A stretch of 64,000 nt of DNA from Sulfitobacter mediterraneus (GTDB lineage Bacteria > Pseudomonadota > Alphaproteobacteria > Rhodobacterales > Rhodobacteraceae): contig NZ_CP069004.1 in the NCBI RefSeq assembly GCF_016801775.1, positions 2,418,001-2,482,000 on the forward strand, given 5' to 3'. The notes under the pieces were generated by a model that saw nothing but the letters and a program-made list of their open reading frames with translations, was not told the DNA's origin and searched no databases. The position numbers and the translations under genes are program-made. This document shows, piece by piece, positions 6,358 to 47,575 of this stretch; the stretch's first letter is position 1, and each line of letters starts with the position of its first letter.

Positions 6358-6362
6358 TCTGC

Positions 6363-31950: not shown

Positions 31951-32634
31951 ATGCACAATATTGCGGCACGATCCCTTCTAGTTCTTGCGCTTTTCTTGCC
32001 CAGCTCCAGCTTGGCCAAAGACCCGCTTCGCATCCTTGTCATGGGCGATTCTTTCATGACTTCAAATGGCTCTGCCGGATCGGCAGTGCCTAGCCTGCTG
32101 CGCCGTGACCTGCAGGCCAACGTCCAAAGCCGCGCGGTCACGGGGGCGCGGTTTGTCTACCGCCTGCCGATCACCGGGGCATTGGGCATGAACATCGCCA
32201 AGCAATATCGCCCCGGCCCGTGGGATTTTGTCGTGATGAACGGCGGCGGCAACGATCTGTGGATGGGCTGCGGCTGCACACGATGCCGCAAGCGGTTGAA
32301 CCGGTTGATTTCCCCGGACGGACGCAAAGGTGAAATCCCCAGCGCCGTAAACACTGCCCGCAAAAGCGGCGCCAAGGTCATCTATGTCGGTTACTTGCGC
32401 AGCCCCGGCCTTGGCTCTCCCATCGAGCACTGCCGCAAAGTGGGTGACGCATTGGAGGCCCGGATCAACGTGATGGCGAAACAGGACGCTGGCATCAGCT
32501 TTGTCTCACTGGCGGACATGGTGCCGCATGGCGATCGCAGTTTTCACGCCGCTGACATGATCCACCCCTCGCCCAAAGGCAGCGCCGCCGCGACCAAGAG
32601 GATCGCCCAAGCCATTCGAAACATTAAGAAGTAA
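31951..32634 (+). CDS. SGNH/GDSL-like hydrolase, exported
   Basis: A 227-residue esterase-like protein. From ATG 31951 there is a signal peptide (SLLVLALFLPSSSLA), then the block I motif MGDS with the nucleophile Ser34, block III GGGND with Asn101, and block V DMIHP with Asp192 and His195. The triad is complete. ATG 31951 has an AAGG site at 31939-31942; an in-frame ATG at 31921 is possible. Four cysteines in CGCTRC and EHC may form disulfides. It may deacylate a cell-surface polymer, given the neighbouring glycosyltransferase and sulfotransferase. Confidence 0.85.
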   Translation: MHNIAARSLLVLALFLPSSSLAKDPLRILVMGDSFMTSNGSAGSAVPSLLRRDLQANVQSRAVTGARFVYRLPITGALGMNIAKQYRPGPWDFVVMNGGGNDLWMGCGCTRCRKRLNRLISPDGRKGEIPSAVNTARKSGAKVIYVGYLRSPGLGSPIEHCRKVGDALEARINVMAKQDAGISFVSLADMVPHGDRSFHAADMIHPSPKGSAAATKRIAQAIRNIKK

Positions 32635-32637
32635 CGA

Positions 32638-33456
32638 TCAATCGCCCAACTTGGCATGGACCTCATCAAGATCAATCTCGCCCACAGGCATTTTGTTTCC
32701 GGGGTTGTCAAAATCATATTTGAACAAGGTGAAATCGCGCTTGTAGATCTCACGCACCAGATGCATCGAAAGATCATCAAAATAGTCTTCCACCGGATGC
32801 GCCCTTTTGGGCCCGTGCCCTTCGCTTTCGTTAAACCGTGGAATATCCGCCAGTTTCACCGAATGCGGGGTCTGGATTGAATCCAGAACGCTCTGCATGC
32901 CGTCGTTGAAGCTTTCGGTCCAAACGATCTTGTCATATTTGCCGCCGTTCACAATGAACGTGCTGACATGCCCTGCCTGCGCAGACCAGTGAATGTCAGG
33001 GTCCATCGGCCGCCGCCAGCGGATCGTGTCACGGGCAAACAACAAAAACCGGCGGAAGCTGGCGATCTGGTCAAACTCCTGTTTGCCATCCTCGCCGCCT
33101 ACCTCAATCCCGTATTTCTGGATCAGCAGCGGCACCAGGTTGCCGCGATACCGCCGCCCGTTGCGTTGAATGCCGCAAATCTTGTCAAAGAACGAAGACA
33201 GGACACGGGTGTAAGGGTTGCGCACACAGGTAAAGGCAAAGGATTTATGCGCCGTCACGTTGCGGGTGATCGGATCTTGTGACGCATCCAGTGCCCACTT
33301 GTGCAACCCGGACTGGGCATCATGGATATCGCCGTCAAAAAACGCCCCATGATCAGAGTAATACATGATTTGCCCGATGGTTGAGCAGGCACATTTTGGC
33401 ACCACCCGATAGACCACGCTTTCGCTTTCCGTCATCCATGTTCCGGGAAACCCCAT
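32638..33456 (-). CDS. Sulfotransferase family 2 protein
   Basis: A 272-residue PAPS-dependent sulfotransferase related to carbohydrate sulfotransferases (HNK-1/chondroitin type). The 5'-phosphosulfate loop VPKCACSTIGQ starts at residue 19, and the 3'-phosphate motif CVRNPYTRVLSSF runs from 77. It has no signal peptide, so it is likely cytoplasmic and acts on a nucleotide- or lipid-linked sugar or polymer. It is divergent from the GT14 glycosyltransferase gene, an arrangement that suggests one surface-glycan pathway. Confidence 0.88.
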   Translation of the reverse strand: MGFPGTWMTESESVVYRVVPKCACSTIGQIMYYSDHGAFFDGDIHDAQSGLHKWALDASQDPITRNVTAHKSFAFTCVRNPYTRVLSSFFDKICGIQRNGRRYRGNLVPLLIQKYGIEVGGEDGKQEFDQIASFRRFLLFARDTIRWRRPMDPDIHWSAQAGHVSTFIVNGGKYDKIVWTESFNDGMQSVLDSIQTPHSVKLADIPRFNESEGHGPKRAHPVEDYFDDLSMHLVREIYKRDFTLFKYDFDNPGNKMPVGEIDLDEVHAKLGD

Positions 33457-33482
33457 AGCGTTCCTGCCTCCTGCCGGCTGCG

Positions 33483-33499
33483 ACTGTTTTCACAACAGT
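33483..33499. promoter_or_regulatory. Palindrome between sulfotransferase and GT14 genes
   Basis: ACTGTT (33483-33488) and AACAGT (33494-33499) flank a 5-base centre in the 144-base divergent intergenic region. It lies close to the sulfotransferase start and could be an operator serving either gene, or a leader hairpin of the sulfotransferase transcript. Confidence 0.4.
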
Positions 33500-33600
33500 T
33501 TCGCGATAACCCCAAAAAAGGGATAAATTCTGTTTATTCAATCCACCTTCACCATTATCTAGGTAAACAAACAGAGGTAAAGAGGCAGTTCGTTTCAGGT

Positions 33601-35178
33601 ATGGCAAAAATCGCCTACATCTTGCTGTGTCACAAAGACCCGGCTGCCATCATTCGGCAGGCCGAGCGGTTGACGGCAGCCGGTGATTATATGTCAATCC
33701 ACTTTGACGCCTCTGCAGATGCCGATGCTTTTCGCGAGATCCAGGCGGCCCTCGCCGACAATCCCAACGTCACCTTTGCACACAAACGGATCAAATGTGG
33801 CTGGGGTGAATGGTCCCTGGTCCAGGCAACGATCTATGCCGTTCAATCCGCGGTCGATGCCTTCCCCAGAGCCACGCACTTCTACATGCTCTCGGGCGAT
33901 TGCATGGCCATCAAGACCGCCGAATACACCCACAGGTTTCTTGACGACAACGATGCCGATTTCATCGAGAGCTTTGATTATTTCGAAAGCGATTGGATCA
34001 AGACCGGTTGGCGTGAGGAACGTCTGATCTACCGCCACTACGTCAACGAACGGACCCACAAAAAACTGTTCTACGCGATGTTCGAGGCCCAAAAACGCTT
34101 TGGTCTCAAACGGAAAATTCCGGCAGATCTGCAAATCCAGATTGGCAGCCAATGGTGGTGCCTACGCCGAAACACCGTTGAATCGGTACTGGAATTCATC
34201 CAGAAACGCCGCGATGTACTACGGTTTTTTCGCACCACATGGATCCCGGATGAAACCTTTTTTCAGACCCTCGTCCGGCATCTGGTGCCGGAGAACGAGA
34301 TTCGCGCCCGCACTCTGACCTTCCTGATGTTCACCGACTACGGGATGCCGGTCACTTTCTACAATGATCACTACGATCTTCTGCTCAGCCAGGATTACCT
34401 CTTTGCCCGCAAAATCAGCCCCGAAGCGCAGGATCTCAAACGCAGGCTCGGCCTGCTCTATGCGGCAGAAGGTGTGGATTTCCAGATTAGCAACGAAGGC
34501 CGCAGCCTGTTCAAATTTCTCAGTGGCCGTGGCCGCGTTGGTCGCCGTTTTGCGACCCGTTTCTGGGAAACCGAAAGCACGCTTGGCCGTGAACGCGAAC
34601 TGCTGATCGTGGTGTGCAAAAAGTGGCACGTGGCCAAACGGGTGCTTGAACGCATCCGGCAAGTGACCAATGTTCCCGCCATTGAATACCTCTTTAACGA
34701 AGAAGACACACCGCTGCCCGATCTTGGCGGCATTCAAAATACGCTGGAAAAACGCACGCGCCACCGCCGCGCGCTGATGCGCATGCTGTTTGACTATTTC
34801 GAAACCGACCGCCTGATCGTTTGCATGGACCCCAGCAATCTGGACCTACTGAATGACTTTGCCTCGGACCGGTCCGTCACCCGCATCCTGGAAATCGAAT
34901 GCCAGTTCTCGGACGATTACCTGATTGGCCATGCCATGCGGGTCGGCCTTGCAGGCGATCAAACCTCCAAAGACACGCTGGCCCGGCTGCTGCCCACCAT
35001 CCGCAATGACATGTTGCACGAACGTGATCAGCTCAACGATGCCGAGTTTGAGAACCACTGCCGGATGCGCGAAACCGCCGGCGCGGACGAAAATGCGCAG
35101 GAACTTGGCCATTTCCTGAACATCCCCACGGACAAAGCCGCCGAGGTGGCACAAACTGACCACCTCTTTGCCGACTGA
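33601..35178 (+). CDS. GT14 beta-1,6-N-acetylglucosaminyltransferase with DUF5928
   Basis: A 525-residue protein. Residues 1-290 form a Core-2/I-branching (GT14) glycosyltransferase: IAYILLCHKDP, SIHFDASAD, WGEWSLVQATI, FYMLSGDCMAIK and GSQWWCLRR are all family motifs. The C-terminal 230 residues match the DUF5928 extension that I know from Roseobacter-group bacteria; their role is unknown. It likely adds N-acetylglucosamine or a related sugar to a surface polysaccharide. It is divergent from the sulfotransferase gene, with a palindrome between them, and is followed by a dispersed repeat. Confidence 0.9.
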   Translation: MAKIAYILLCHKDPAAIIRQAERLTAAGDYMSIHFDASADADAFREIQAALADNPNVTFAHKRIKCGWGEWSLVQATIYAVQSAVDAFPRATHFYMLSGDCMAIKTAEYTHRFLDDNDADFIESFDYFESDWIKTGWREERLIYRHYVNERTHKKLFYAMFEAQKRFGLKRKIPADLQIQIGSQWWCLRRNTVESVLEFIQKRRDVLRFFRTTWIPDETFFQTLVRHLVPENEIRARTLTFLMFTDYGMPVTFYNDHYDLLLSQDYLFARKISPEAQDLKRRLGLLYAAEGVDFQISNEGRSLFKFLSGRGRVGRRFATRFWETESTLGRERELLIVVCKKWHVAKRVLERIRQVTNVPAIEYLFNEEDTPLPDLGGIQNTLEKRTRHRRALMRMLFDYFETDRLIVCMDPSNLDLLNDFASDRSVTRILEIECQFSDDYLIGHAMRVGLAGDQTSKDTLARLLPTIRNDMLHERDQLNDAEFENHCRMRETAGADENAQELGHFLNIPTDKAAEVAQTDHLFAD

Positions 35179-35187
35179 CCCTCTGCC

Positions 35188-35241
35188 CTTTTTGGCCCCT
35201 AAATACTCCAGGGGGAGTTTGAGGGGGCATGAAGCCCCCTC
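35188..35241 (+). repeat. Dispersed palindromic repeat, copy A
   Basis: The element begins CTTTTTGGCCCC, continues TAAATACTCC, then a GGGGGAGTTTGAGGGGG block, and ends in a GGGGGC...GCCCCC hairpin (35223-35239). It lies between two convergent genes, where it may act as a terminator. Copies B (40569), C (46834) and D (53462) share the same order of blocks. Confidence 0.7.
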
Positions 35242-35282
35242 ATCAGCCCAGATATCGCATGCGGCAACGCCGCCCGATCAGG

Positions 35283-35918
35283 TTAACTCTTGTCTTTGGC
35301 ACGCCATGTGCCGATCCAGCGGCTGAAACGCCCCCGCTTTTCGACCAGATCGTCCTCGATGGCTTCCAATGTCGGGTCGATCCGCGCCATGCGGAACCGT
35401 CGCCAGCGCACCCAGATGGCATAGGCGATGGCAAAGAACACCACGAGAATAAAGATGTTCAACCATGGAATACCTTTCGCCGCATCCGGTCCGTCCACCG
35501 CCCGGATCGAAATGGCATTGGGAAAGATCGACAGGAATTCATTACGCCAGCCATAATGTTTGATCGCAACATATTTTGCCGCCTCGCCTGTGGATTTGGC
35601 ATCGGCCGCCTCAGCCTGCAGATTGGAGGTGTCGAATTTGAAATAGGGCGGCCAGCCCCAGCCCGTGTCCTCATTGCGGTAAACCATGACATCGCCTTTG
35701 GCCCGCCGCGTCTGGATAAAGAACACATCGCGGTTCACCGCCGTGCCATCGCTGCCCACATCCGCCTGCGCCCAAAAGATCGAGTTCTCGCCAAAATCGA
35801 TCCGCTTTTCATAGGTGTCTGTCACCCGCACGATATCGACCTGCGGCAAAGTGTAGTGAAAGAAACACCCCACCAGCACCCAGAAGGTGATCCAGAAAAC
35901 CCATTTGATAATCGCCAT
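35283..35918 (-). CDS. DUF1523 family membrane protein
   Basis: A 211-residue protein of unknown function. A membrane helix at residues 4-25 (KWVFWITFWVLVGCFFHYT) and another near 150-170 (PWLNIFILVVFFAIAYAIWV) flank a periplasmic domain of about 125 residues; the tail is basic and cytoplasmic. I recognise the DUF1523 family. It is the last gene of the minus-strand cassette starting at 43075, 12 bases after the 88-residue membrane protein gene. Confidence 0.82.
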   Translation of the reverse strand: MAIIKWVFWITFWVLVGCFFHYTLPQVDIVRVTDTYEKRIDFGENSIFWAQADVGSDGTAVNRDVFFIQTRRAKGDVMVYRNEDTGWGWPPYFKFDTSNLQAEAADAKSTGEAAKYVAIKHYGWRNEFLSIFPNAISIRAVDGPDAAKGIPWLNIFILVVFFAIAYAIWVRWRRFRMARIDPTLEAIEDDLVEKRGRFSRWIGTWRAKDKS

Positions 35919-35930
35919 CTGATGGCTCCT

Positions 35931-36197
35931 TCAGGAAAAATTGGTGAGGTAGATGATCACGCCGACCACCACCACCGGAACAACATAAACACCCAGGATC
36001 AGCTTGCGCCGGATAGATCCATCGTATTTCTCAAGCCCGCGCTGCACGAAGGTTTCGCGGTCCACTTTCTGCGGTCCGTCCTGCCACTTCTGCCGCAGCT
36101 TTCCCTTGCGCACCGCGCGGGAGTAAAACGACAGGCAGACATAGATCACCGTCAGAACGACAAATCCAACCACCACGAGCCGTGCCAATGCGAACAT
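35931..36197 (-). CDS. Small two-helix membrane protein, unknown
   Basis: An 88-residue protein with membrane helices at about residues 5-25 (LARLVVVGFVVLTVIYVCLS) and 64-85 (KLILGVYVVPVVVVGVIIYL), joined by a basic loop of about 38 residues. The ATG lies one base after the stop of the DUF6638 gene. No family known to me. Its place between DUF6638 and DUF1523 suggests a shared membrane complex. Confidence 0.78.
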   Translation of the reverse strand: MFALARLVVVGFVVLTVIYVCLSFYSRAVRKGKLRQKWQDGPQKVDRETFVQRGLEKYDGSIRRKLILGVYVVPVVVVGVIIYLTNFS

Positions 36198-36198
36198 C

Positions 36199-37554
36199 TT
36201 ATCGCCTCCTTACCGCGCCCCAGGGGCCAACCCGCGCGATCATCTCTGACACCGGATCGGGCCTGGCCCTGCGCGGCTCTTCCATCGGCGCATCATGCCC
36301 GAAAAGCGCGGCCCGCGCACCGGCTTTGTCCACCTGATACTCGGCCACAAGAAAATCGGCAACATAGGCCTTCTTGGTCTCGGCCCAGCCTGCATAGGTG
36401 CGATAGAACAGTTCCTTGTGGCAAATGAACATCTGCCGTGCATCCTTGGGTGCCAGTTCCGCCAAGAGCATATTCACCAGTGCCGCATCCTTGGTGTCCG
36501 ACGCCCGAAGCGTATAGAAATAGGCCGGATGATCCGAAGTGATCCGAGGCCATGCCCCGCCATTCTCGGCCCAGCGCACCAAAGCGCCCAGCGCATGAAA
36601 CTCCGGCGGCAGTTTGTCCCCGTGATGCCGCGCCAGCCTGCGCATATCCGCCCGATTGGCCCCAGAAAGATCCACGCCCAGATCAGCCACCGCATCCACC
36701 AGAATGAAATCCATCTTCTGCCGCAGGATCGCCGCCGCATCCACGCCCCGCGCCTTCACAATCGGCTCCACCAGATCGTTGTATTCAAAAAACTTAGCGA
36801 TCTGGTTTCGGTTGCCCCCATCAAACACGTATTTTATCGGCAGATCTTCCAGCCCATCCTTGCCCGCAGGGGCAATCAGCGCCGGATGATCAAGATCCTG
36901 AAACAGATACAGCCCGCCAAAATGCGCGGTCCAGAAATTGCGCTGATCAAATCCCATCTGCTTGAGCTTGACCGGATTGCGGATCACGTCCCCGGTCTTG
37001 CCTGCCAGCGTGATCATCTCGGCAATCAGCACGTCATCAAACCAACCATCCGGCTCGCTCTTGAACCGGTCCACCAAACCGCCCAGCTTCTCCGCATCCC
37101 GCAAGGTGCCGCCCGTGGTATCCGCCTCAATCTCGACCCGGCGAATATCAAACAGCCGCGCCGGGGTGCTGACGTCATAAACCGAATTCACCAACTCCCC
37201 CGTCACCGCATCCCGCGCAGTCAGGGCAAAGAGCTGCGCCTCATTGGCATCCATGAACTGCTGCAGGATCTCCCGCGAGGTGGAGAATTTGGTGTTCAAC
37301 AAAGGACATCTGCGTTGCTCCATGCTCAGCAGGATAAACTGCCGGTTCACCCCCGCATGGTTGAGATAGAGATGATCCTCCAGCTCATCGCCGACCTCTG
37401 GGGAATAGCCGGAGATGTCGATGTGAAAGTCGCTCAGTTCCGTGCGCTTGCCCGTGAGGTGCTCAAGCGCCCGATTGTAACGCTCCACCAAGGCAGGGCT
37501 GTCCACATGGAACAGATTGCCGAACATGAGGCCGTGTCTGATCAAGCGATGCAT
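36199..37554 (-). CDS. DUF6638 family protein
   Basis: A 451-residue soluble protein matching the DUF6638 family of Rhodobacterales, function unknown. It starts MHRLIRHGLMFGNLFHVDSPALVERYN. It has no signal peptide or membrane helix, and no catalytic motif that I recognise; a short Arg-rich tail ends it. It follows the Mrr-type endonuclease gene after a 131-base gap holding two tandem hairpins, so its expression may be partly uncoupled from the upstream genes. Confidence 0.8.
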   Translation of the reverse strand: MHRLIRHGLMFGNLFHVDSPALVERYNRALEHLTGKRTELSDFHIDISGYSPEVGDELEDHLYLNHAGVNRQFILLSMEQRRCPLLNTKFSTSREILQQFMDANEAQLFALTARDAVTGELVNSVYDVSTPARLFDIRRVEIEADTTGGTLRDAEKLGGLVDRFKSEPDGWFDDVLIAEMITLAGKTGDVIRNPVKLKQMGFDQRNFWTAHFGGLYLFQDLDHPALIAPAGKDGLEDLPIKYVFDGGNRNQIAKFFEYNDLVEPIVKARGVDAAAILRQKMDFILVDAVADLGVDLSGANRADMRRLARHHGDKLPPEFHALGALVRWAENGGAWPRITSDHPAYFYTLRASDTKDAALVNMLLAELAPKDARQMFICHKELFYRTYAGWAETKKAYVADFLVAEYQVDKAGARAALFGHDAPMEEPRRARPDPVSEMIARVGPWGAVRRR

Positions 37555-37591
37555 CTGCGCCTCCCGCCATGCTGCACTGTCAGTCTGCCCT

Positions 37592-37643
37592 GCATCTGCA
37601 AAGCAGATGCGCGCCCTTCCCTTCCCCCCCTGGGGAAGGGCGC
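37592..37643. promoter_or_regulatory. Two tandem perfect hairpins before the DUF6638 gene
   Basis: GCATCTGC (37592-37599) pairs with GCAGATGC (37603-37610). Immediately next to it, GCGCCCTTCCC (37611-37621) pairs with GGGAAGGGCGC (37633-37643). On the minus strand they lie downstream of the endonuclease gene and upstream of the DUF6638 gene. They may terminate or process the transcript at this junction. Confidence 0.65.
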
Positions 37644-37685
37644 TGGACTGAAGCTAACCGGGAGATTTTGGGTAGCGCGGTTCAT

Positions 37686-38615
37686 TTAAATTCCCTCGAA
37701 CCACTTACTGTTAATATGAACACGCTCAACCATTTCTGTCGTTACGCCAAGCCCATTCACTTTGAGTAGTTCGCAAAGACGATATCCATCAATCAAGTCG
37801 ATAGCGGTGGCGCCATCCCTTGTTGCCTCTTCATTAGCTTGAGCCGTGTAGTGTCCTGTTGTAATAAACAATCCCTTGTCTGCCCGACCTTGCATTGCGC
37901 CACGGAAATCCCGAATTTCATGGGCTGATACCCCTCCAGTATAGCGTTTACATTGGAAATAGACTTGGAAAGAAACAAGGTTTACGCGAAGTACGCCAAC
38001 GCCATCGATCCCTCCGTCACCCGATTTTCCTCGGACCTCTACTTTTGTGAAACCAGCTTCCCGGAGAAGCCTTTGGGCTAGTCTCTCAAATGCCGAAGGA
38101 TCTAACTTTCGCAAAACTGAAAGCAGTCGATCATCCCAGTTGAGTTGTGCGTCAGCTTCTTCTTCCGACTCGCCGGTATCAAAGATTCCGTCATCCTTTG
38201 ACGTATTTGCACTTTGCGCTTGAGCCTTGGCTTGACGTCGTAGCTTTGCTTTCTCTTTTTCTTCTTCAATAACTTGATCATAAATTATTTTGCAGTCCCC
38301 GATGGTCGAAATCTTTGCTCCAATCTCAGTAAGAGCCCAGACACCCCTACTAGAGTTCTCGACAGCTTCACCACGACGCAAATAAGTCCGGGCCCATGCT
38401 AGATAGTAGTTCAATCGTGGTTGGGCGCTGTTTTTCCCCACCATCATGTACGACTGTTCCTCCTCAGTAACATTTTCGAGTTCGGCTACTTTTTCATCGA
38501 GTTCATGAATGGTGGCAGATCCACCGACTTCCCTGAGTGCCTCAACAGTGGCCAGCATCATTCCTGGCATCTCAGGGAAACCCTCGGCTTCAATTCTGAA
38601 CTTACGACTACTCAC
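37686..38615 (-). CDS. Mrr-type restriction endonuclease
   Basis: A 309-residue nuclease. Residues 1-100 form a winged-helix Mrr_N-like DNA-binding domain (MPGMMLATVEALREVGGSATIHELDEKV is its start). An acidic/basic linker covers about 112-155. The C-terminal Mrr_cat domain has the PD-(D/E)xK core: FERLAQRLL helix, Asp204 in GGIDGVG and Gln221-x-Lys223 in QCKRY. Mrr proteins cut methylated DNA or act under stress. The start is GTG 38615, overlapping the AAA+ gene stop (GTGA). The base use is clearly more AT-rich than the flanking genes, a sign of acquisition. Confidence 0.88.
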   Translation of the reverse strand: MSSRKFRIEAEGFPEMPGMMLATVEALREVGGSATIHELDEKVAELENVTEEEQSYMMVGKNSAQPRLNYYLAWARTYLRRGEAVENSSRGVWALTEIGAKISTIGDCKIIYDQVIEEEKEKAKLRRQAKAQAQSANTSKDDGIFDTGESEEEADAQLNWDDRLLSVLRKLDPSAFERLAQRLLREAGFTKVEVRGKSGDGGIDGVGVLRVNLVSFQVYFQCKRYTGGVSAHEIRDFRGAMQGRADKGLFITTGHYTAQANEEATRDGATAIDLIDGYRLCELLKVNGLGVTTEMVERVHINSKWFEGI

Positions 38616-40552
38616 CCCTCACCCCCAGACAAATACCGCCGTTTGGCCTCTTCCATCCGGCCCATCTCGCGCACGGCGTTTTCAATCGCCACCTCATCGG
38701 ACTTATCTGCATAGCGGAATTCGCTGTCGGCATAGCGGTTGATCTCCTGCACCACCATCTCCACCGTGATCGGCTGGCGCATCTCGTTGATCATCGCCTT
38801 CTTGGTCTCGTAATCCTTGAACAGGAACAGATCGGGCTCCTCCATCCATTCATCGGGCAGTTCAAAATCCATCGCGCGCACCTTCACCGCGTCGGTGATG
38901 TTCTTGATCGCCCGCCCGGTGAACCGCGGATCAGCCTCCTGAATACCCTTGAGATAGGTGCCCAGCTTGTTGATCGTGTCCAGCTCCCCAATCTCGCCCA
39001 TCACCGCCTCATAGACCTTCAGCAGCCCGTCCTCATGGGGCCGCGAGTGGCTTTCAAAGGACGCCGCCACCGCCTTTTTGATCTCCTGCGCCTCGAACAC
39101 ATTGTGATCGCCCAAGGGGATGTCATGGTTCTTACCCATCAACAGATAGAGGATATCAACGTAATCCTCCCGCGTTTGCGGCCCATCGACCAAGAAACGC
39201 GCCCCGGCACGCTGGCGCAAGGCATCATCGACGTTTTCGGGATAGTTCGAGAACATCCCAAAGGTGCAGTTCCCCCGCACAACGGTATTGGCCCCGGCAA
39301 AGCTCTCCATCAGAACCGCCGTGATCTCAAGCTGGCCCGCTGAGGACTGCCTGTCACCGCGTTTGCCCGCCAGCTGGTCAATATCATCAATCGTGCCAAA
39401 GCCAATAACCGAGGGATCAATGATATTGTTGATAAACGCCTTGGCGTTCTGCCCCGATTTACCCTGATAACTGTCGATATTATCGGTGCTCAGGTTCTGA
39501 TACCGAAACGGATATCCGGCATTGCTGCAATACTCCGAAATCAACCCCGCCATCATCTGGATCAGCGTGGTTTTCCCCGTCCCGGGTGCGCCATCCCCCA
39601 TAAAGGTAAAGATAAAACCGCCCAATTCGGCAAAGGGGTTCAGTCGCCGGTCAAAATCATAAGCCATCAACATCTTGGCCAGCTTCATCGCTTGGTATTT
39701 GGCGATGTGGTTGCCGACCACCTCATTGGGCTTTTTGAAGGTCATGGTCAGCGTGGTTGATTTCGCCTTGGAGGCCGGGCTGAACCCACGCACGGTGAAA
39801 TCATCCGCCTCAACCCGCCAGGCGGCAGATTTGAATCCTTCCAGGCGCGGCGCGGTCTGGGCACGCAGGGCAACCTTTTCCATCAGGCTCTCGGCAAAGG
39901 CCGCCACCGTCGCCACCAGCCGCGCATCATCCTGCGCATGGGCGGCGATGTCCTGATCCAACTCCCACAATGCGCCGTGCAGTGCGACCTGTCCGTTGTC
40001 GGTCAAGACCTCATCGACCTCGCCCACCTCCACAGTGGTCTCAGTCAGATGCGACGACATCAGATAGGCCGTGGCATTGCCCAACACATAGAGCGTCACC
40101 AGGGCCTCCGCCGACAGAAGCTCGCTGAACTCGCTCTTGCGGGCCGCCGGCAATGAGCCCTCCAGATTGGCGCGTTTGAGATCGCCCAGCCCCGATTGCT
40201 CCGCCACGTTTTCCGCCACCGCCAAGGCAATCGCTATCGCGCGGCGTAACACATGCAGCACCGTCGCCTGCATCGGGCTGATCAACGTATCGCCTTCATC
40301 CGCGCCTTCAATCCGCGCAATCAATTGCACTGCCCCGGTCGGCACCCTGCGCCGTGTCACTAGCCCCGGTGTGGTGGTGCGAAACCGCCGCCGCGTGCCA
40401 AGGCCCGATGATTGCTCTGCCACGCTGTCATCGCCGGTGGCCTTGCCAATCCGCGGCGCGTGATCAAACCCGTCCAACATCGCCTGCGCCATCGGCACAT
40501 GTTTGTGAATATCCTCCTCACGGAGTTCCATCGCATCTGAAATCTGGCTCAT
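38612..40552 (-). CDS. AAA+ ATPase with large N-terminal domain
   Basis: A 646-residue AAA+ protein. The first 300 residues are an unrecognised helical domain. The ATPase core has Walker A GAPGTGKTT at 321-329, a Walker B with unusual wording, GFGTIDDID at 384-392, sensor 1 near Asn436 (MFSNYPENVDDALRQRAGARF), and candidate arginine fingers at 446-452. The substrate is unknown. It sits between the 373-residue protein gene and the Mrr gene, and repeat copy B abuts its 5' end. It is probably the motor of the 35-43 kb cassette. Confidence 0.88.
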   Translation of the reverse strand: MSQISDAMELREEDIHKHVPMAQAMLDGFDHAPRIGKATGDDSVAEQSSGLGTRRRFRTTTPGLVTRRRVPTGAVQLIARIEGADEGDTLISPMQATVLHVLRRAIAIALAVAENVAEQSGLGDLKRANLEGSLPAARKSEFSELLSAEALVTLYVLGNATAYLMSSHLTETTVEVGEVDEVLTDNGQVALHGALWELDQDIAAHAQDDARLVATVAAFAESLMEKVALRAQTAPRLEGFKSAAWRVEADDFTVRGFSPASKAKSTTLTMTFKKPNEVVGNHIAKYQAMKLAKMLMAYDFDRRLNPFAELGGFIFTFMGDGAPGTGKTTLIQMMAGLISEYCSNAGYPFRYQNLSTDNIDSYQGKSGQNAKAFINNIIDPSVIGFGTIDDIDQLAGKRGDRQSSAGQLEITAVLMESFAGANTVVRGNCTFGMFSNYPENVDDALRQRAGARFLVDGPQTREDYVDILYLLMGKNHDIPLGDHNVFEAQEIKKAVAASFESHSRPHEDGLLKVYEAVMGEIGELDTINKLGTYLKGIQEADPRFTGRAIKNITDAVKVRAMDFELPDEWMEEPDLFLFKDYETKKAMINEMRQPITVEMVVQEINRYADSEFRYADKSDEVAIENAVREMGRMEEAKRRYLSGGEG

Positions 40553-40568
40553 CTAAATACGGGCCTTC

Positions 40569-40606
40569 CCTTTTTGGCTCTAAATATTCCCGCCGGAGGC
40601 ATAAAT
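40569..40606 (+). repeat. Dispersed palindromic repeat, copy B (degenerate)
   Basis: The CCTTTTTGGCTC and TAAATATTCC blocks match the other copies; the G-rich part is degenerate (CGCCGGAGG). It lies inside the minus-strand operon, between the 373-residue protein gene and the AAA+ gene. The complement of its first block, with adjoining bases, gives the AAGGGAAGG that is the only ribosome-site-like sequence before the AAA+ start. Confidence 0.6.
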
Positions 40607-41728
40607 CTAATAGCGCAGCACCTGCCCCGACGCGCTCACCACGAATTTACGCACTGCGGCAAATCCCGGTGGATCTTGTTCTTCCAACACCTGATAGGGC
40701 CGTTGCGGCAAGATGATGCTGCGTTCTTGGCGGGTGGCGCCCAGATCGGCGCCCTTGCCACCAAACGGATCCAGCGCAAAAACCTCACGCTCAACCGTCG
40801 AGAACCACCCGGATTTTTCTTCGATCACACGGTCACTGACCAATTCCTCTTCGGTCCAGACCAATGCCCAGTCCTGCCCCTCGGGCGCCTTGGCATCGGC
40901 CAGCACATTGCGAAGTGGACCGGCCTGCCGGGTGAAGGCATGGCTGTACATCGGACCCACATGGAACCGCCGCAACCGCTTGGGGTGCAAGTCATCAAAG
41001 TCCTGATCAAAGCCCCGTGCAATCGTCACCAGCTTCAGTCCGCCCAGCGCCTGCGCCGACAGATGCGCCTGTACCTCCGGCCAGCGCCGTTCATCTTTGG
41101 GTAGCCCAACCTTGCCGCTGTCCTCCAACTCCATCAGATAGATCACCGGCAAATTCACCTGACTGTCATAGGTCGCCCAATGCAGCCGGAAGGTGCGCCG
41201 TCCGTCGCTCAGGTTTCCGGTCCAGTCGGCCTGCGGATCGTTCTGCACCCAGAACAGACCCCCTTTGATCAACTCCTCATAATACAGCCGCTGGGACAGG
41301 GCGAATTGCAGTTTGGTCGGCACCTGCCTGTCGCCCAGGATCATCTGCACCATTTCGTTTTTGAGCGTGGCAACCGAAGGCATGTTTTCCAGATGTTTGG
41401 CCGCTTGCTGTGCATCATTGGCCATCGTCATCAGCTCTTCGGCCACCGGGAAACCACTGTCACGGTTGTCGATACTGAGCGAGCCAAAGAACCGCCCTGT
41501 TTCCCGCCCCACCAACAGATACTTGAGGCTCAGCGCCTTGAACGTGTGGGTCAACATCACCGCATAGCGGGTCAGGATTTCCACCTCATCCCGGTTCAAC
41601 TTGCTTTCCGCCTCCATCACTCCGGCCACCCGCAGCATATGTTGCATGATGCCCTCGAACTTGCGGAAATACCGGCGCGAGGCAAAGGTATCCATAAGGC
41701 CGACGTGGTCGCGGGCGGGGTCAGTCAT
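40607..41728 (-). CDS. Conserved hypothetical protein of the AAA+ cassette
   Basis: A 373-residue soluble protein that I cannot assign to a named family. The first 150 residues are mostly helical (KFEGIMQHMLRVAGVMEAES, NDAQQAAKHLENMPSV), and the rest mixes strands and helices with a conserved-looking RRFHVGPMYSHAF stretch. No signal peptide. The start ATG 41728 has a good AAAGG ribosome site lying within the overlapping small membrane-protein gene. The position immediately before the AAA+ gene suggests an adaptor or regulator of the ATPase. Confidence 0.8.
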   Translation of the reverse strand: MTDPARDHVGLMDTFASRRYFRKFEGIMQHMLRVAGVMEAESKLNRDEVEILTRYAVMLTHTFKALSLKYLLVGRETGRFFGSLSIDNRDSGFPVAEELMTMANDAQQAAKHLENMPSVATLKNEMVQMILGDRQVPTKLQFALSQRLYYEELIKGGLFWVQNDPQADWTGNLSDGRRTFRLHWATYDSQVNLPVIYLMELEDSGKVGLPKDERRWPEVQAHLSAQALGGLKLVTIARGFDQDFDDLHPKRLRRFHVGPMYSHAFTRQAGPLRNVLADAKAPEGQDWALVWTEEELVSDRVIEEKSGWFSTVEREVFALDPFGGKGADLGATRQERSIILPQRPYQVLEEQDPPGFAAVRKFVVSASGQVLRY

Positions 41729-42002
41729 GATGTACCTTTGCTATCCAAATCCGAACGCTGGTGCAGGCAATCGAAAATATGAGCAATTCCAAAAGCCAAT
41801 CCATGCGCAACAGCCAAACACCATAAGGGCTATATAAAACGCCCCAGACCAATACGGGTAAGCCAGCAAGAATCCATCGGTCAGCGCGGCCAATGAACAA
41901 TGCCACCAAAACGCCGAAAAATTGAACCATGAGCCGCCCAACAGGTCTTCCCGGATGATATGGTTGAGGTCGCAATTTCAGCCTGCCTTCACCGGGCCTC
42001 AA
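41721..42002 (-). CDS. Small membrane protein of the AAA+ cassette
   Basis: Up to 93 residues. It has two or three hydrophobic segments (VQFFGVLVALFIG, WILAGLPVLVWGVLY, LLELLIFSIACTSVRIWI). The longest frame starts at TTG 42002, overlapping the coiled-coil gene stop (TTGA); an internal ATG at 41930 would give 69 residues and keeps all helices. It overlaps the next gene by eight bases. Position and hydrophobicity support a real gene, but its start is uncertain and no family is recognised. Confidence 0.65.
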   Translation of the reverse strand: MRPGEGRLKLRPQPYHPGRPVGRLMVQFFGVLVALFIGRADRWILAGLPVLVWGVLYSPYGVWLLRMDWLLELLIFSIACTSVRIWIAKVHHD

Positions 42003-43075
42003 GCCCCATATTGATTGCTGTCATGCTTCTCGATGATCTTCTGGAACCGGCGGGCGAAACGCTCATCCGCCTTGGCTTTGGCCTCCAGCACTTCGCGGGC
42101 AAAGACCATGTGATCTTCGTGTTTCTCCATCATCTCCGCCATCCGCGCATTGGTGGCGGCACCAATCCCCGCCATGGCAGATTGCGCCTCTTGGTCGGTT
42201 TTTACGCCGATCTCGTTGATCCGGTGGGCGACGTCCTGCTGCTGTGCTGTCTTGAGCGATTTGGTCAGCGCATCATAGAGCACGACCCGTTGTTTGGTGT
42301 CGGTCTGCAGCTTGTTGATCAAGACCATCTGTGTCGCCGCCTGGTTCTGCAGGGAATCGATCCAGGTCTTGCCCTTTTCGATATAGCGCTCGAGCGTCTG
42401 CGACTTGGCCAGCTTGACCTGCTCTTCCTGCACCAGCGCATTGTAGCGGGTGTTCATCTCGGCCAGTTCGGTTTCCAGCTTGGTGCGCTTTGCGGCATCG
42501 GTCTCGCTGGCGATCGCATTTTCCAGCTTGATAATATCGGGGTCCATCCCGCCAATATCGCTGCGAATGGTTTCCAGTTCTCCCACCGTCATCTCGCGCT
42601 CGTCCAGTGTTTCGGTCAGGTTGCTTTCGACCTTGACCTTCTGCTCTTCCAGCATCGCCAGCTGCCCTTCGAGCAGTTGCACAATTACGTCGGACTTGCT
42701 GATCAAATCCTGCAATTTGTCGTCGATAGAGGCGGACCTCACCCGTTCCTGCCGCATGCTATCCGACTTCGCCCCTGAGAAGATCCCGACAAAGGTTTCC
42801 CAACCGGTCTTGTTGCGCATCTCGTCAAAGTCACGGCTGAATCCGGCGGTCACATCGTCCAGTCCCATGATCAACTCGGCGATGTTAGCGTTCATCACCT
42901 CTGTATGGGCATGCACATCTTCGAGTGTGGCATTTTCAATGTCGATCATCGCATCGTCGCCAGCTTTCAATTTGGCACGTGCTGTTTCGATCCGGCCCGT
43001 CAACTCGGCAATCTTGCTTTGCGCTTCGGCGACTTGCGCCTGGGATTCTTTTACCTGTGCATCCAAATTGGCCAT
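41999..43075 (-). CDS. Long coiled-coil protein, first gene of the AAA+ cassette
   Basis: A 358-residue, strongly charged coiled-coil protein without signal or membrane helix. Heptad-rich stretches fill residues 1-45, 115-230 and 280-345, broken by a short GWETFVGIFSGAKSD segment near 90-105. The general plan recalls TelA-type toxic-anion resistance proteins and other coiled-coil membrane-stress proteins; this is a resemblance, not an assignment. ATG 43075 follows a GAGGATC site; a TTG one codon earlier is less likely. The promoter region upstream holds a Crp/Fnr-like palindrome. Confidence 0.82.
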   Translation of the reverse strand: MANLDAQVKESQAQVAEAQSKIAELTGRIETARAKLKAGDDAMIDIENATLEDVHAHTEVMNANIAELIMGLDDVTAGFSRDFDEMRNKTGWETFVGIFSGAKSDSMRQERVRSASIDDKLQDLISKSDVIVQLLEGQLAMLEEQKVKVESNLTETLDEREMTVGELETIRSDIGGMDPDIIKLENAIASETDAAKRTKLETELAEMNTRYNALVQEEQVKLAKSQTLERYIEKGKTWIDSLQNQAATQMVLINKLQTDTKQRVVLYDALTKSLKTAQQQDVAHRINEIGVKTDQEAQSAMAGIGAATNARMAEMMEKHEDHMVFAREVLEAKAKADERFARRFQKIIEKHDSNQYGA

Positions 43076-43096
43076 CAAACGATCCTCTATATCAAT

Positions 43097-43141
43097 ATCT
43101 TAGCCCATATATAGGCAATGTTACGCTGATTTACATCAGCG
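43097..43141 (-). promoter_or_regulatory. Predicted promoter with Crp/Fnr-like palindrome for the AAA+ cassette
   Basis: CGCTGAT (43124-43130) and ATCAGCG (43135-43141) form a perfect inverted repeat around TTAC, giving the core TGAT-N4-ATCA. On the minus strand a TAAGAT -10 hexamer lies at 43102-43097, predicting a start near 43090. The palindrome would then be centred near -42, the class II activator position of Crp/Fnr-family regulators. No strong -35 hexamer is present at the right distance, as expected for an activated promoter. Confidence 0.55.
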
Positions 43142-43195
43142 CGTTCAAAACTTTTCTCGATTGTGCCAAATGCCCCTGACCTTGAAAAGGGCAGA

Positions 43196-44413
43196 TCAAT
43201 CTGTCTGCCTCTCCTGCTGCACACCGGCCCACCTTAGGGTCAGCAACAGCACCATCAGGCACAAAATGCCTACCAACGCGTACCAGCCCAAGGTCAGGCG
43301 GATATCATCATAAGCCATAGCCGTTCGATCCGAAACCTGCACCGACGCGAGCAGCAAACTGCCCGCAAACAGCAGCCTGCCTGCGAAACTCTGCACAGAC
43401 AGGAACGTGGCGCGCCCTGCGTCGCTCAGCAAAGGTTGCATACGCGCGATGATAAAGGGCCGCGACAGGGAATTGGGCACCATACGCAAGAACAATACCG
43501 CGATGGCAAAGATACTGTTGGTCACGGCCAATGTCGCAATCAACCCCACCTGAATCCCAAAGGCCAGCATCAATAGCACCGCCAGACCAAACCGCCTGCG
43601 CAGCCGCAGCGCAAACAGAGTGGCGATAGCGGACACCAACATCATAATCGCGGAAACACCACCACTGACCATCGGCGCGTCGCCGTGTAGTCCTATATTG
43701 CGCAGGGCTTCGGCGATGAAAGGTTGGCCAAAAACAAAGGGAATATGACTAAGTCCATACATCAACACCGATAGCGTAAACAGCCAGACCAAAACCGGCA
43801 CACCCATGGCAGAACGAAACAGCCGCGCCTGGAACACCGGACCGGCGGTCTCGGTCCGGTTCATCTCATGCGGCGGCTCACAAAACCGCACTGCCACGAT
43901 AAAACAAGCCATCTGAGCCACTGCACCCGCAGCGAAGGCCAGCCAATAGCCCCATTGCGCCATCACCCCGCCCGTGAACGCAGACAGGGCAAGCCCGATC
44001 AACGAAAACTGCCAACTGCGGGTTTCCTGCGCCTCGGTTTCTGCTTCCCGGCCATCTGCTGCGAGCGATTCATACAAAAACGCATTGTCGGTTCCCGATG
44101 CAAAAGCCGCACCGGCCCCCAACAAAATCTGCGCGCAGGCAAAGGTCGCAAAGCCATCGCCAAAGGCGATCAACGCCGCACCGGCACTGGCCGCAATACC
44201 TGACGCAATCAGCGTCCGCCTCCGGCCCAATCGATCAGACATATAGCCTGAAGGAACCTCCATCGCGGTCGTGCCAACATCATAGATGGCATAAAGCATG
44301 ATCGCCTCGGCGCCCGACAACTCCTTTTGAAAGAACAAGAACCAGATCGCCTGCCAGAACACGAGGTTCTGAAAGAACTTGAACCATGGGTACAACGCAA
44401 CGTTGCGCGCCAT
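43196..44413 (-). CDS. MFS transporter
   Basis: A roughly 405-residue 12-helix major facilitator. The loop 2-3 signature SGYMSDRLGRRRTL is present near residue 60. The N-terminal ARNVALYPWFKFFQNLVFWQAIWF is typical of an uncharacterised MFS subgroup. I use ATG 44413; a GTG at 44431 overlaps the stop of the upstream hydrolase gene (GTGA) and is a real alternative. Substrate unknown. Confidence 0.88.
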   Translation of the reverse strand: MARNVALYPWFKFFQNLVFWQAIWFLFFQKELSGAEAIMLYAIYDVGTTAMEVPSGYMSDRLGRRRTLIASGIAASAGAALIAFGDGFATFACAQILLGAGAAFASGTDNAFLYESLAADGREAETEAQETRSWQFSLIGLALSAFTGGVMAQWGYWLAFAAGAVAQMACFIVAVRFCEPPHEMNRTETAGPVFQARLFRSAMGVPVLVWLFTLSVLMYGLSHIPFVFGQPFIAEALRNIGLHGDAPMVSGGVSAIMMLVSAIATLFALRLRRRFGLAVLLMLAFGIQVGLIATLAVTNSIFAIAVLFLRMVPNSLSRPFIIARMQPLLSDAGRATFLSVQSFAGRLLFAGSLLLASVQVSDRTAMAYDDIRLTLGWYALVGILCLMVLLLTLRWAGVQQERQTD

Positions 44414-44427
44414 CGGTGTGGCCGCGA

Positions 44428-45216
44428 TCACCAGCTGACCAAAATATTGGTCAACTCATGCTCAGGATCTGCCAGCGCATCGATCACATCAAAATGGTGC
44501 TTGCCCGCATCCACCACCTGCCGTGCACCCCAAGACCGTGACAGGGCTTCGGCTTGCTCAAGGAACACGGGGCGCTCTTCCGCGCCAACCCAAACCGTCA
44601 CGGCAACCCCATGCGGCGGGATCATATTGACCGGGCTTTCGGCCATGGCCTCTGCCTCATCCAGCCGTAGATCAACGTTCATCGAGGTTTGCAACAAAGG
44701 CATCAGATCCGCCACGGGCGAGATCGGCACAACCGTCTTGATCCGGCTCCGCACATCGCCCGGCAACACCAGCGGATCCATCATCCGCGCCACGAGATGC
44801 CCGCCGGCAGAATGGCCCGCCAAGGCAATTGGCCCAAAAGTCCGGTTGGCAATATGGCGCACTGCCGCGGCAATCTGGGCCGTGATTTCACTGATCCGCA
44901 CCTGCGGACATAATATATAGCTGGGCATGGCAACCGCCCAGCCCCGCGCCAACGCCCCGGCGGCCAAATGGGACCACGAACTCTTGTCAAATGCCTTCCA
45001 ATAGCCGCCATGCACAAAGATCAGCGTGCCGCGCGACACGCCCTCGGGCTGGAAAAAATCATAAGCCTCCCGATCCGATCCGCCATAGGAAACATCAACC
45101 TGCGCCCGCGCGCCAAGTTCGGCGCGAAAAGCAGCCGCAGCCGCAGCCCAGCGCGGCGGATATTCGTCAGCGCCATCAATGTAGGCACCATTGGCATAGG
45201 CATCATCAAGCTTCAT
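44428..45216 (-). CDS. Alpha/beta hydrolase, kynurenine-formamidase-like
   Basis: A 262-residue alpha/beta hydrolase. The oxyanion motif HGGYW lies at residues 69-73 and the nucleophile Ser136 in GHSAGG; the acid and His occur in the C-terminal VWVGAEERPVF and KHHFDVIDAL stretches. The HGGYW form is typical of arylformamidases in the kynurenine pathway. No other kynurenine genes are close, so related esterase roles remain open. ATG 45216 has a CAGGAG site. It is co-oriented and nearly overlapping with the MFS gene. Confidence 0.88.
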   Translation of the reverse strand: MKLDDAYANGAYIDGADEYPPRWAAAAAAFRAELGARAQVDVSYGGSDREAYDFFQPEGVSRGTLIFVHGGYWKAFDKSSWSHLAAGALARGWAVAMPSYILCPQVRISEITAQIAAAVRHIANRTFGPIALAGHSAGGHLVARMMDPLVLPGDVRSRIKTVVPISPVADLMPLLQTSMNVDLRLDEAEAMAESPVNMIPPHGVAVTVWVGAEERPVFLEQAEALSRSWGARQVVDAGKHHFDVIDALADPEHELTNILVSW

Positions 45217-45312
45217 TTGTGGCTCCTGTAGGTATTCAGCCCATAAACTGGACCTAGACAATCATAGACTTACTTGCTTTGGGTAGCACAACCAAAACGC
45301 GGAGACACCCAA

Positions 45313-46785
45313 ATGACCGACGCTACAACGAATCTCAAATCCCTGCTCAAAGATCCCAGCCTGCTCGAAACCCGCGCCTATATCGGCGGTAAATGGGTGG
45401 ATGGCGAAGATGGCACCTTTGACGTGACAAACCCGGCCCGCGGCGATGTGATCGCCAAGGTGGCCAACCTCAGCCGCGCCCAGGTGGCCGGCGCCATCGC
45501 CCAAGCCGAAGCGGCCCAGAAAGAATGGGCCAGCTGGACCGGCAAGGAACGCGCAGGCGTTCTGCGCAAATGGTTCGACCTGATGATGGCAAACCAGGAC
45601 GATCTGGGCGCGATCCTGACCGCAGAGCAAGGCAAACCACTGGCCGAAGCCAAAGGCGAAGTGGCCTATGGTGCCTCCTTCATCGAGTTTTTTGGCGAAG
45701 AGGCCAAACGCATCTACGGTGAGACCATCCCCGGCCACCAGCGCGACAAACGGATCACGGTGCTGAAACAGCCTATCGGCGTGGCGGCCTCAATCACGCC
45801 GTGGAACTTCCCCAACGCAATGATCACCCGCAAGGCCGCGCCCGCGCTGGCCGCCGGTTGTTCTTTCGTCGCCCGCCCTGCCGCTGAAACACCGCTTTCC
45901 GCTATCGTGATGGGCGTGCTGGCCGAACGCGCAGGCATCCCCGCAGGCGTCTTCAACGTGGTGCCGTCCTCCTCGTCCTCTGCAGTGGGCAAGGAGTTCT
46001 GTGAAAACCCTGCCGTGCGCAAACTGACTTTCACTGGATCCACCGAAGTGGGACGGATCTTGCTCAAGCAGGCCGCCGATCAGGTGATGAAGTGTTCGAT
46101 GGAGCTGGGCGGCAACGCCCCCTTCATCGTGTTTGACGATGCCGATCTTGATGCGGCGGTCGAAGGCGCCATCATGTGCAAATTCCGCAACAACGGCCAA
46201 ACCTGCGTCTGCGCCAACCGCATCTATGTGCAATCCGGCGTCTACGACACCTTTGCCGAAAAACTCAAAGCCCGCGTGGAACAGATGAAAATCGGTGATG
46301 GCTTTGAAGAAGGCGTGGACCTCGGTCCGCTCATCAACCCCGCCGCCGGCGAAAAAGTCAAAGAGCACATCGACGACGCGATCAGCAAGGGCGCAACCGT
46401 GATTCTCGGCGGCAACGGCGCGATGGACGGCAATTTCCTTCCCCCCACCATCGTCACCGGCGTCACCCAAGACATGCAGGTCGCGCAGGACGAAACCTTT
46501 GGCCCCTTCGCCCCCCTGTTCAAGTTCGAGGACGAAGACGAGGTGATCGCAATGGCCAATGACACGATCTTTGGTCTGGCATCCTATTTCTACGCCAACG
46601 ACCTCAGCCGGGTCTACAAAGTGGCCGAAGCGCTGGAATACGGGATCGTGGGCGTGAACACCGGCATCATCTCAACCGAGGTCGCCCCCTTTGGCGGCGT
46701 CAAACAATCCGGCCTCGGCCGCGAAGGCAGCCACCACGGCATCGAAGACTATCTGGAGATGAAATACATCTGCATGAGCGTCTGA
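45313..46785 (+). CDS. gabD: NAD(P)-dependent succinate-semialdehyde dehydrogenase
   Basis: A 490-residue aldehyde dehydrogenase of the GabD type, oxidising succinate semialdehyde to succinate. The catalytic Glu is in MELGGNAPFIVFDDADLD and the catalytic Cys in NNGQTCVCANR, with a second Cys two residues later as in redox-sensitive SSADHs. The cofactor loop FTGSTEVGR and the C-terminal GVKQSGLGREGS signature are intact. ATG 45313 has a GGAG site; the longer frame from 45274 is not needed. A GABA aminotransferase is not adjacent. Confidence 0.94.
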   Translation: MTDATTNLKSLLKDPSLLETRAYIGGKWVDGEDGTFDVTNPARGDVIAKVANLSRAQVAGAIAQAEAAQKEWASWTGKERAGVLRKWFDLMMANQDDLGAILTAEQGKPLAEAKGEVAYGASFIEFFGEEAKRIYGETIPGHQRDKRITVLKQPIGVAASITPWNFPNAMITRKAAPALAAGCSFVARPAAETPLSAIVMGVLAERAGIPAGVFNVVPSSSSSAVGKEFCENPAVRKLTFTGSTEVGRILLKQAADQVMKCSMELGGNAPFIVFDDADLDAAVEGAIMCKFRNNGQTCVCANRIYVQSGVYDTFAEKLKARVEQMKIGDGFEEGVDLGPLINPAAGEKVKEHIDDAISKGATVILGGNGAMDGNFLPPTIVTGVTQDMQVAQDETFGPFAPLFKFEDEDEVIAMANDTIFGLASYFYANDLSRVYKVAEALEYGIVGVNTGIISTEVAPFGGVKQSGLGREGSHHGIEDYLEMKYICMSV

Positions 46786-46801
46786 CCGCAGCGCCCAAAC
46801 A

Positions 46802-46831
46802 GGGTCCGACCATATTGGCCGGACCCCTTCT
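46802..46831 (+). terminator. Terminator-like hairpin after gabD
   Basis: GGGTCCG (46802-46808) pairs with CGGACCC (46820-46826), extended inside by CC/GG, and is followed by CTTCTTC rather than a full T-run. It lies 16 bases after the gabD stop. Confidence 0.6.
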
Positions 46832-46833
46832 TC

Positions 46834-46879
46834 ACTGGCACTATAAACTCCGGGGAGTTTGAGGGGCTGGCCCCTCAAG
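46834..46879 (+). repeat. Dispersed palindromic repeat, copy C, overlapping a TetR gene
   Basis: The blocks GGCACTATAAACTCC, GGGGAGTTTGAGGGG and the hairpin GAGGGGC-TG-GCCCCTC match copies A and D. On the minus strand this sequence supplies the last 13 codons and the stop of the TetR gene. Confidence 0.65.
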
Positions 46880-47556: not shown

Positions 47557-47575
47557 TGTATCGGAGAACCAACCT

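Follow-up and report, generated by a model that had tools for sequence, protein, structure and literature searches.

A conserved AAA+ ATPase/coiled-coil gene core with two exchange slots in Sulfitobacter mediterraneus and its relatives

Do eight adjoining genes, among them those for an AAA+ ATPase, a coiled-coil protein and an Mrr-type nuclease, constitute one system, and if so of what kind? This question is raised by a 64,000-nucleotide stretch of Sulfitobacter mediterraneus DNA (contig NZ_CP069004.1, positions 2,418,001 to 2,482,000; hereafter the window), in which eight open reading frames (ORFs), all on the minus strand, fill positions 35283-43075. An initial annotation had described eight co-directional, mostly overlapping genes. 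Their common direction was borne out, but neighbouring ORFs overlap at only 3 of the 7 junctions, the remaining four being gaps of 54, 131, 1 and 12 bases. We found that the conserved unit is four genes, encoding the coiled-coil protein (CC), a 373-residue protein (P373), the AAA+ ATPase and a DUF6638 protein, not eight. Within this core, which remains orthologous between relatives, lie two slots where one gene is replaced outright by another. Judging from sequence, we assign a probability of about 0.5 to the interpretation that the locus is a modular conflict operon, probably anti-phage, with exchangeable effectors. The features of the locus are as follows.

43075-41999, minus strand: CC, a coiled-coil protein of 358 residues; the conserved core starts with this gene
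42002-41721, minus strand: 93-residue membrane protein with a TTG start, occupant of slot 1; an ORF that is not conserved
41728-40607, minus strand: P373, a 373-residue core protein with a helical N-terminal part and a beta-rich C-terminal part, without a Pfam family
40552-38612, minus strand: AAA+ ATPase, 646 residues, core (Pfam AAA, 2e-11)
38615-37686, minus strand: Mrr-type restriction endonuclease, 309 residues, GTG start, occupant of slot 2 (Pfam Mrr_cat and Mrr_N)
37554-36199, minus strand: DUF6638 protein, 451 residues, last core gene (PF20343, 7e-240)
36197-35931, minus strand: S88, an 88-residue membrane protein, neighbour and not an obligatory part
35918-35283, minus strand: DUF1523 membrane protein, neighbour and not an obligatory part (PF07509, 6e-68)
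41741-41997: slot 1, the stretch without homology by blastn to the closest relative found (genome G035, locus L191)
37644-38616: slot 2, likewise without homology by blastn to that relative

Conservation of a four-gene core

Of 580 confirmed loci with a gene for the ATPase, the best 80, all from named organisms, served as the set of relatives, and the genes of the window were located in them by tblastn (E 1e-3). The closest of these 80 by ATPase identity were from Sulfitobacter. The ATPase gene was present in 80, P373 in 79, CC in 77, DUF6638 in 75, DUF1523 in 73 and S88 in 72, and the gene order was the same in all 80 relatives. This co-arrangement of six of the eight genes is far beyond chance. 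Mrr was found in 1 of the 80 loci and the 93-residue protein in none; the flanking glycosyltransferase and MFS genes were found in 18 and 5, respectively. All six conserved genes were present in 69 of the 73 loci that cover at least 19 kb, the exceptions being L056 and L084, which lack DUF6638 and the genes after it, L076, which contains the ATPase gene alone, and L097, which lacks S88.

CC, P373, the ATPase gene and DUF6638 also occur in this order in loci from Sinorhizobium, Shinella, Rhizobium and Vibrio. The core therefore consists of four genes. Identity to the window proteins was 43% (CC), 30% (P373), 53% (ATPase) and 31% (DUF6638) in S. meliloti, and 39, 29, 43 and 28%, respectively, in V. 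parahaemolyticus; Pfam confirmed DUF6638 in the cassettes of S. meliloti (8e-76) and Vibrio (3e-59). Rhodobacterales and Rhizobiaceae thus share the four-gene core with a further alphaproteobacterial family, with Vibrio and with one genome outside the class. In a sample of 398 Pseudomonadota genomes, CC was found in 30, 4 of which hold only a divergent form. The genome outside the class (G130, locus L147) carries the whole six-gene arrangement including S88 and DUF1523, which suggests transfer between classes.

Relatives from the plasmid collection sit on records of 0.4-4.6 Mb. One of these, the 3.7 Mb S. meliloti 'pSymB' record CP090106.1 (L103), was rejected as evidence of plasmid carriage: with genes for thymidine kinase and formate-THF ligase, it is apparently a chromosome under a wrong label, and therefore we drew no inference on mobility from it. 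In the window, promoter and terminator scans gave a signal no higher than in shuffles, and searches for tRNAs and Rfam families found none.

Within 58 genomes of the genus, CC was present in 31 and DUF6638 in 33, with both in 30 and neither in 24. CC without DUF6638 was seen in one draft (G031), and DUF6638 without CC in the incomplete drafts G004 and G006 and in G061, where DUF6638 is broken. Internal stops were found in DUF6638 of G030 and in CC of G080. We hand-picked ten core-free or decayed sites from the 25 genus genomes that have no core or a decayed one. DUF1523 was kept at all ten sites and S88 at eight. All ten were flanked by the ORFs at window positions 44428-45261 and 45274-46785 on one side and by those at 33601-35178 and 32638-33456 on the other, and the site in G061 (L144) retains a remnant comprising a piece of the end of the ATPase gene and the broken DUF6638. 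Our reading of these ten sites is that the core occupied a fixed chromosomal site and was lost from it, and that S88 and DUF1523 are its neighbours, not obligatory parts. The ORF at 33601-35178 (plus strand) encodes a Branch-type glycosyltransferase with a C-terminal DUF5928; it has a match in all 58 genus genomes and adjoins the cassette site where examined.

Different neighbours were found in the six loci assigned to Rhizobiaceae (L103, L105, L106, L149, L150 and L155). Here the downstream neighbour of the core is a DUF2333 gene in five loci; this gene was not found in L106. In four further genomes of the Rhizobiaceae-like family to which L149, L150 and L155 belong (loci L151, L152, L153 and L156), a divergent CC lies beside DUF2333 with no other core gene in the 15-19 kb covered. 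The divergent CC is a true relative of CC (profile-profile probability 99.9%), and its pairing with DUF2333 is possibly ancestral or a stripped-down form.

The initial annotation had named a failure of these genes to co-occur elsewhere as refuting. We ran that check, and the four-gene core does co-occur. The AAA+/coiled-coil cassette of the initial annotation is upheld as a real and conserved operon, undescribed as far as literature searches reach. The proposal that all eight genes form one system is not upheld: Mrr and the 93-residue protein are interchangeable occupants of slots, and S88 and DUF1523 persist where the core was lost.

Two slots whose genes are replaced wholesale

Slot 1 lies between CC and P373 and slot 2 between the ATPase gene and DUF6638. 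Gaps of at least 180 bp were found at these junctions in 53 of 75 and 65 of 72 loci, respectively, compared with 6 of 75 between P373 and the ATPase gene, 0 of 72 between DUF6638 and S88 and 0 of 70 between S88 and DUF1523. Between intact neighbours the median gap was 251 bp in slot 1 and 692 bp in slot 2 (up to 2382 bp); the corresponding values for the other three junctions were 70, 1 and 11 bp. ORFs in the slots of Rhodobacterales loci were called mechanically, such that some may not be genes, and were grouped by blastp (E < 1e-4) when at least 60 residues long in slot 1 or 90 in slot 2. This procedure gave 42 families among 58 ORFs from 52 loci in slot 1, and 39 families among 88 ORFs from 67 loci in slot 2.

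The exchange is seen most directly in the closest genome found, G035, which is 88-91% identical in DNA to the window across 32020-46891 except at both slots. The aligned blocks run from 32020 to 37643, 38617 to 41740 and 41998 to 46891, and the holes between them are the slots. The encoded core proteins are 97% (ATPase), 99% (CC), 98% (P373) and 97% (DUF6638) identical to those of the window. In place of the window's Mrr and 93-residue proteins, G035 has ORFs of 112 residues in slot 2 and 83 residues in slot 1.

Within the genus, 13 slot-2 families were distributed over the 22 cassettes with a readable slot 2; because family 0 in this count includes L003 solely through an N-terminal stretch of about 17 residues that it shares, by eye, with L007, the true number is probably one higher. 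This stretch (KKGSSGAFPxRTGGA and variants) was also noticed by eye as common to the otherwise unlike slot-2 proteins of L023 (same genome as L003), L007 and L054, and may be left over from a junction or serve as a docking peptide. A candidate duplication of the ATPase gene in L029 was rejected: an in-frame stop interrupts the ATPase gene of this locus shortly after its start, and the 637-residue ORF is the ATPase itself. With its ATPase counted short, L029 was excluded from the Rhodobacterales slot-2 family and gap statistics; its slot 2 was read in the genus count. The six loci with an open P373-ATPase junction (L046, L050, L057, L066 and others) represent a rarely used third slot, and some of these gaps hold ORFs of 99-152 residues.

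Three of 75 loci contain apparent footprints of exchange; the window, counted among the 75, has none. In L044, a 150-bp copy (90% identity) of the 3' end of the ATPase gene sits between two slot-2 ORFs. In L035 and L042, 53-56 bp (89%) of the start of P373 lie between two slot-1 ORFs, and L035 has a further weak 49-bp match to the end of CC. As a control, random stretches of the same loci were compared with the ATPase end alone, and gave 2 matches in 345, both of 20 bp. The footprints resemble scars left by recombination events, and slot genes are probably exchanged by recombination of this kind, with the flanking core genes as anchors.

In many loci slot 2 is closely coupled to the ATPase gene. 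In the window the Mrr start codon overlaps the ATPase stop, and across loci the first slot-2 ORF overlaps this stop by 4 bases in 34 of 68, a count made without a shuffled control and by a scan opened 12 bases ahead of the stop. A 4-base overlap also arises easily, given that ATGA, GTGA or TTGA is the ending of 60 of 78 ATPase genes.

What the exchange may serve

We next consider the kind of protein that the slots supply. For the Pfam and PADLOC scans the slot-2 set comprised 87 of 102 called ORFs (at least 95 residues; one L071 ORF dropped), and the control comprised 86 length-matched flanking ORFs from the same loci, 1 of the 87 having found no partner. By a simple hydropathy count, a membrane helix was predicted in 51 of 58 slot-1 ORFs and 71 of 88 slot-2 ORFs, compared with 17 of 86 in the flank control. 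In the genus, matches in slot 2 were confirmed for putAbiC (L006, L007 and L030), AbiJ_NTD4 (L016) and Mrr (L001 and L014), and a DUF559 gene occupies slot 2 in 4 of the 6 Rhizobiaceae loci. Matches below the cut-off used for Pfam (1e-3) were to HNH (L074), HEPN_RiboL-PSP (L038) and DUF4145 (L094). The 86 control ORFs contained 64 Pfam families; the 25 shown were mostly metabolic, with one from a type I restriction enzyme.

The slot-2 protein of the window fits the type IV restriction Mrr family, with both Mrr_cat (PF04471, 4e-31) and Mrr_N (PF14338, 2e-15) present, and contains GDGGID and QCK stretches, spotted by eye, that look catalytic. Window-type Mrr also occupies slot 2 of G016 and G064. 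The remaining close relative lies outside the slot, in a core-free genome (L192; G013 contig C4, positions 6044-6949), where it follows ORFs that by eye look methylase-like and helicase-like; this 25-kb contig is a possible reservoir of slot genes.

If the locus is a modular conflict operon, its core would sense infection or a damage state, with the AAA+ ATPase, its coiled-coil partner and two adaptor-like proteins forming an ATP-driven sensing or activating assembly. ATP hydrolysis on the coiled-coil assembly would control the exchangeable slot-2 effector, here the Mrr nuclease and elsewhere putAbiC-type two-helix membrane proteins, AbiJ-type proteins, DUF559 proteins or proteins with a weak likeness to HNH or HEPN. 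The small membrane protein from slot 1 would perhaps act as an anchor, second effector, brake or modulator. This reading draws on the conserved order of the core, the swap in the near-identical background of G035, the diversity of the slots, the comparison of junctions, the close coupling of slot 2 to the ATPase gene, the effector-like slot-2 content, the placement of putAbiC and Mrr, and the footprints. The more specific proposal that the core is an unrecognised immune system of a new type, in which an ATP-driven coiled-coil assembly licenses whichever slot-2 effector and slot-1 membrane protein are present, is put forward tentatively, at slightly less than even odds. Under this proposal lineages would change specificity or mode of killing by swapping slot genes, with the machine remaining constant.

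The best-surviving alternative is that the core has a housekeeping or stress role and that its slots are a landing site. Independent defence genes and small membrane genes would then hitch-hike on the operon, using its promoter and translation but not cooperating with the core. We consider this a real possibility, with the odds distinctly against it. Three features speak against it. Slot 2 holds every putAbiC match (3 of 3) and 3 of the 4 close Mrr relatives (at least 66% identity) in the 58 genomes of the genus, which is more selective than expected of a neutral site. Downstream of DUF6638, where the gene run continues, no junction was ever open, and together with the placement of putAbiC and Mrr these closed junctions favour a module. 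Finally, 24 of the 58 genomes lack the core and one has it in decayed form, so that it is not essential.

Several observations weigh against a conflict operon, and a number of these speak for a landing site. The core is chromosomal, in stable synteny at one site in the genus, and highly conserved, CC being at least 86% identical across the nine Sulfitobacter loci in the set of 80 relatives. In L104, L105, L106, L147 and L148 slot 2 has almost no content (<50 bp), so that cores without a slot-2 gene exist in other lineages; this and the conservation of the chromosomal core favour hitch-hiking. The slots vary largely independently: co-variation was not clear, at 7 of 117 pairs where shuffling gave 2.7 on average (7 was reached in 15 of 500 shuffles), and 5 of the 7 pairs were among Tateyamaria. 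Most slot-2 genes match no family. Pfam at 1e-3 named ten families in the 87 proteins, with one member each, by our count in six proteins: Mrr (L045), putAbiC (L030), AbiJ_NTD4 (L043), DUF2971 (L061), HATPase (L095) and a thioredoxin-like protein taken as that of L092, the last two being no defence families. PADLOC matches were not richer in slot 2 (19 families in 87 proteins) than in the flanks (25 in 86); these counts fail to separate slot 2 from the control and therefore argue against a simple claim of enrichment. In the genus genomes, 8 of 11 Mrr-type matches (one close, seven more distant or partial) lie outside the slot, and 1 of 3 AbiJ_NTD4 matches is in slot 2. CC was not found in phage records, nor the ATPase in viral contigs. 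In PADLOC-DB 2.0.0 (2023) no core protein matched strongly: P373 and DUF6638 had no match, the ATPase matched weakly to TRIP13 (5.5e-6) and IetA (0.0095) and CC was marginal (best 0.0033), such that Mrr was the only one of the eight window proteins with a strong match.

A second alternative is a membrane-tethered remodelling machine of the ESCRT-III/Vps4 or Ter/TelA type, in which CC would polymerise on the membrane and the ATPase would disassemble the polymer. The ATPase has a single AAA domain (residues ~320-455) preceded by an N-terminal half without a Pfam match, and its GDGxPGTGKT stretch and an Asp-Asp pair, which we take to be Walker A and part of Walker B, were invariant in 7 of 7 aligned sequences. 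Its nearest solved structures by profile are an i-AAA protease and proteasomal subunit 10B. A classical-type AAA domain of this sort beside a long coiled-coil protein, with small membrane proteins in slot 1, fits such a machine. No MIT model, the N-terminal domain of Vps4-type ATPases, was among the Pfam matches of the ATPase up to E 1. CC had no Pfam match up to E 1 to PspA_IM30, Snf7 or TelA, and profile comparison (hhalign) gave 3.6% probability (E 0.012) against 16 PspA proteins and 9.5% (E 0.0034, over 48 columns of coil) against 10 TelA proteins; the positive comparison of CC with its own divergent relatives gave 99.9%. CC is thus not detectably TelA or PspA by sequence, and the kinship with ESCRT-III or TelA suggested in the initial annotation was not borne out. 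PspA and TelA are both encoded elsewhere in this genome, in units apart from the cassette, and the membrane proteins of the slots are not conserved. The AF2 model of CC, all helix with a mean pLDDT of 68.4 and a pTM of 0.48, is too uncertain to support a polymer fold; the best Foldseek match of this low-confidence model (E 0.012) was a designed helix bundle, among many unrelated helical matches. No positive support for a membrane-remodelling role turned up, and we consider this alternative unlikely. The PspA_IM30 gene of the window (47543-48259, plus strand, E 2.7e-23) lies outside the cassette, 4.5 kb off, as part of a separate unit; by eye, ORFs close to it resemble HSP20 and trypsin genes.

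The other window proteins gave few leads. CC, P373, S88 and the 93-residue protein had no convincing Pfam match, and NCBIfam added nothing convincing beyond Pfam. The DUF6638 protein matches PF20343 over the full profile (1-439 of 439). The AF2 model of P373 is of good confidence (pLDDT 87.4, pTM 0.86) and had no significant structural match. Searches by sequence for solved relatives gave a best E of 0.28 for CC and 0.19 for P373, and none up to 1 for DUF6638.

The last alternative, a polymorphic toxin-immunity locus acting between bacteria with the toxin in slot 2 and immunity in slot 1, would account for hypervariable slots with small membrane proteins, but is very improbable, given that slot-1 and slot-2 families are tied only by a weak excess, mostly among close relatives, and that family scans of 87 slot-2 proteins, in which no search was aimed at export signals or delivery domains, named none.

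Relation to known systems

In searches of open-access PMC literature we found no paper that names DUF6638 or putAbiC and none that describes this operon; papers on DUF1523 and DUF2333 were unrelated by title. Modularity with exchangeable effectors is already known from other systems. What is undescribed, as far as these searches reach, is the present core, its layout with two slots and its stable place on the chromosome. If the locus is a modular conflict operon, a chromosomal system of several proteobacterial families would be added to bacterial immunity, and three uncharacterised families (CC, P373 and DUF6638) would become testable parts of a machine. The core would also serve as a search tool, since any gene between the ATPase gene and DUF6638 would be a candidate effector, most of them without a family. 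Even if the slots are a landing site, a conserved operon that repeatedly captures genes, some of them for defence, at two exact positions would be unusual as a place of exchange, and its footprints offer a way to work out the mechanism.

Among systems with which the locus may be compared, TelA proteins (toxic anion resistance, PF05816) are helical and resemble CC in size (~360-400 residues), although the low profile probability (9.5%) and the presence of a true TelA elsewhere in the genome set CC apart. According to passages in PMC11237479, bacterial PspA/ESCRT-III proteins are found with Vps4-type or other AAA+ ATPases, and an AAA+ ATPase gene adjoins the coiled-coil gene, as in the present locus. 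Unlike the coiled-coil protein of those systems, CC is not detectably PspA or Snf7. The slot-2 protein of the window shares Mrr_cat and Mrr_N with type IV restriction by Mrr, but unlike a plain type IV enzyme it is one occupant among 39 families of slot-2 ORFs, and its start overlaps the AAA+ stop.

CBASS and Avs are modular anti-phage systems that combine a conserved core with exchangeable effectors. The present locus resembles them in that conserved genes of a sensing or motor type lie beside a strain-variable effector gene, nucleases and membrane proteins being among the variants. It differs from them in that Pfam shows no cyclase or STAND domain in its core, and in having two separate exchange slots within an operon that occupies one chromosomal site in the genus.

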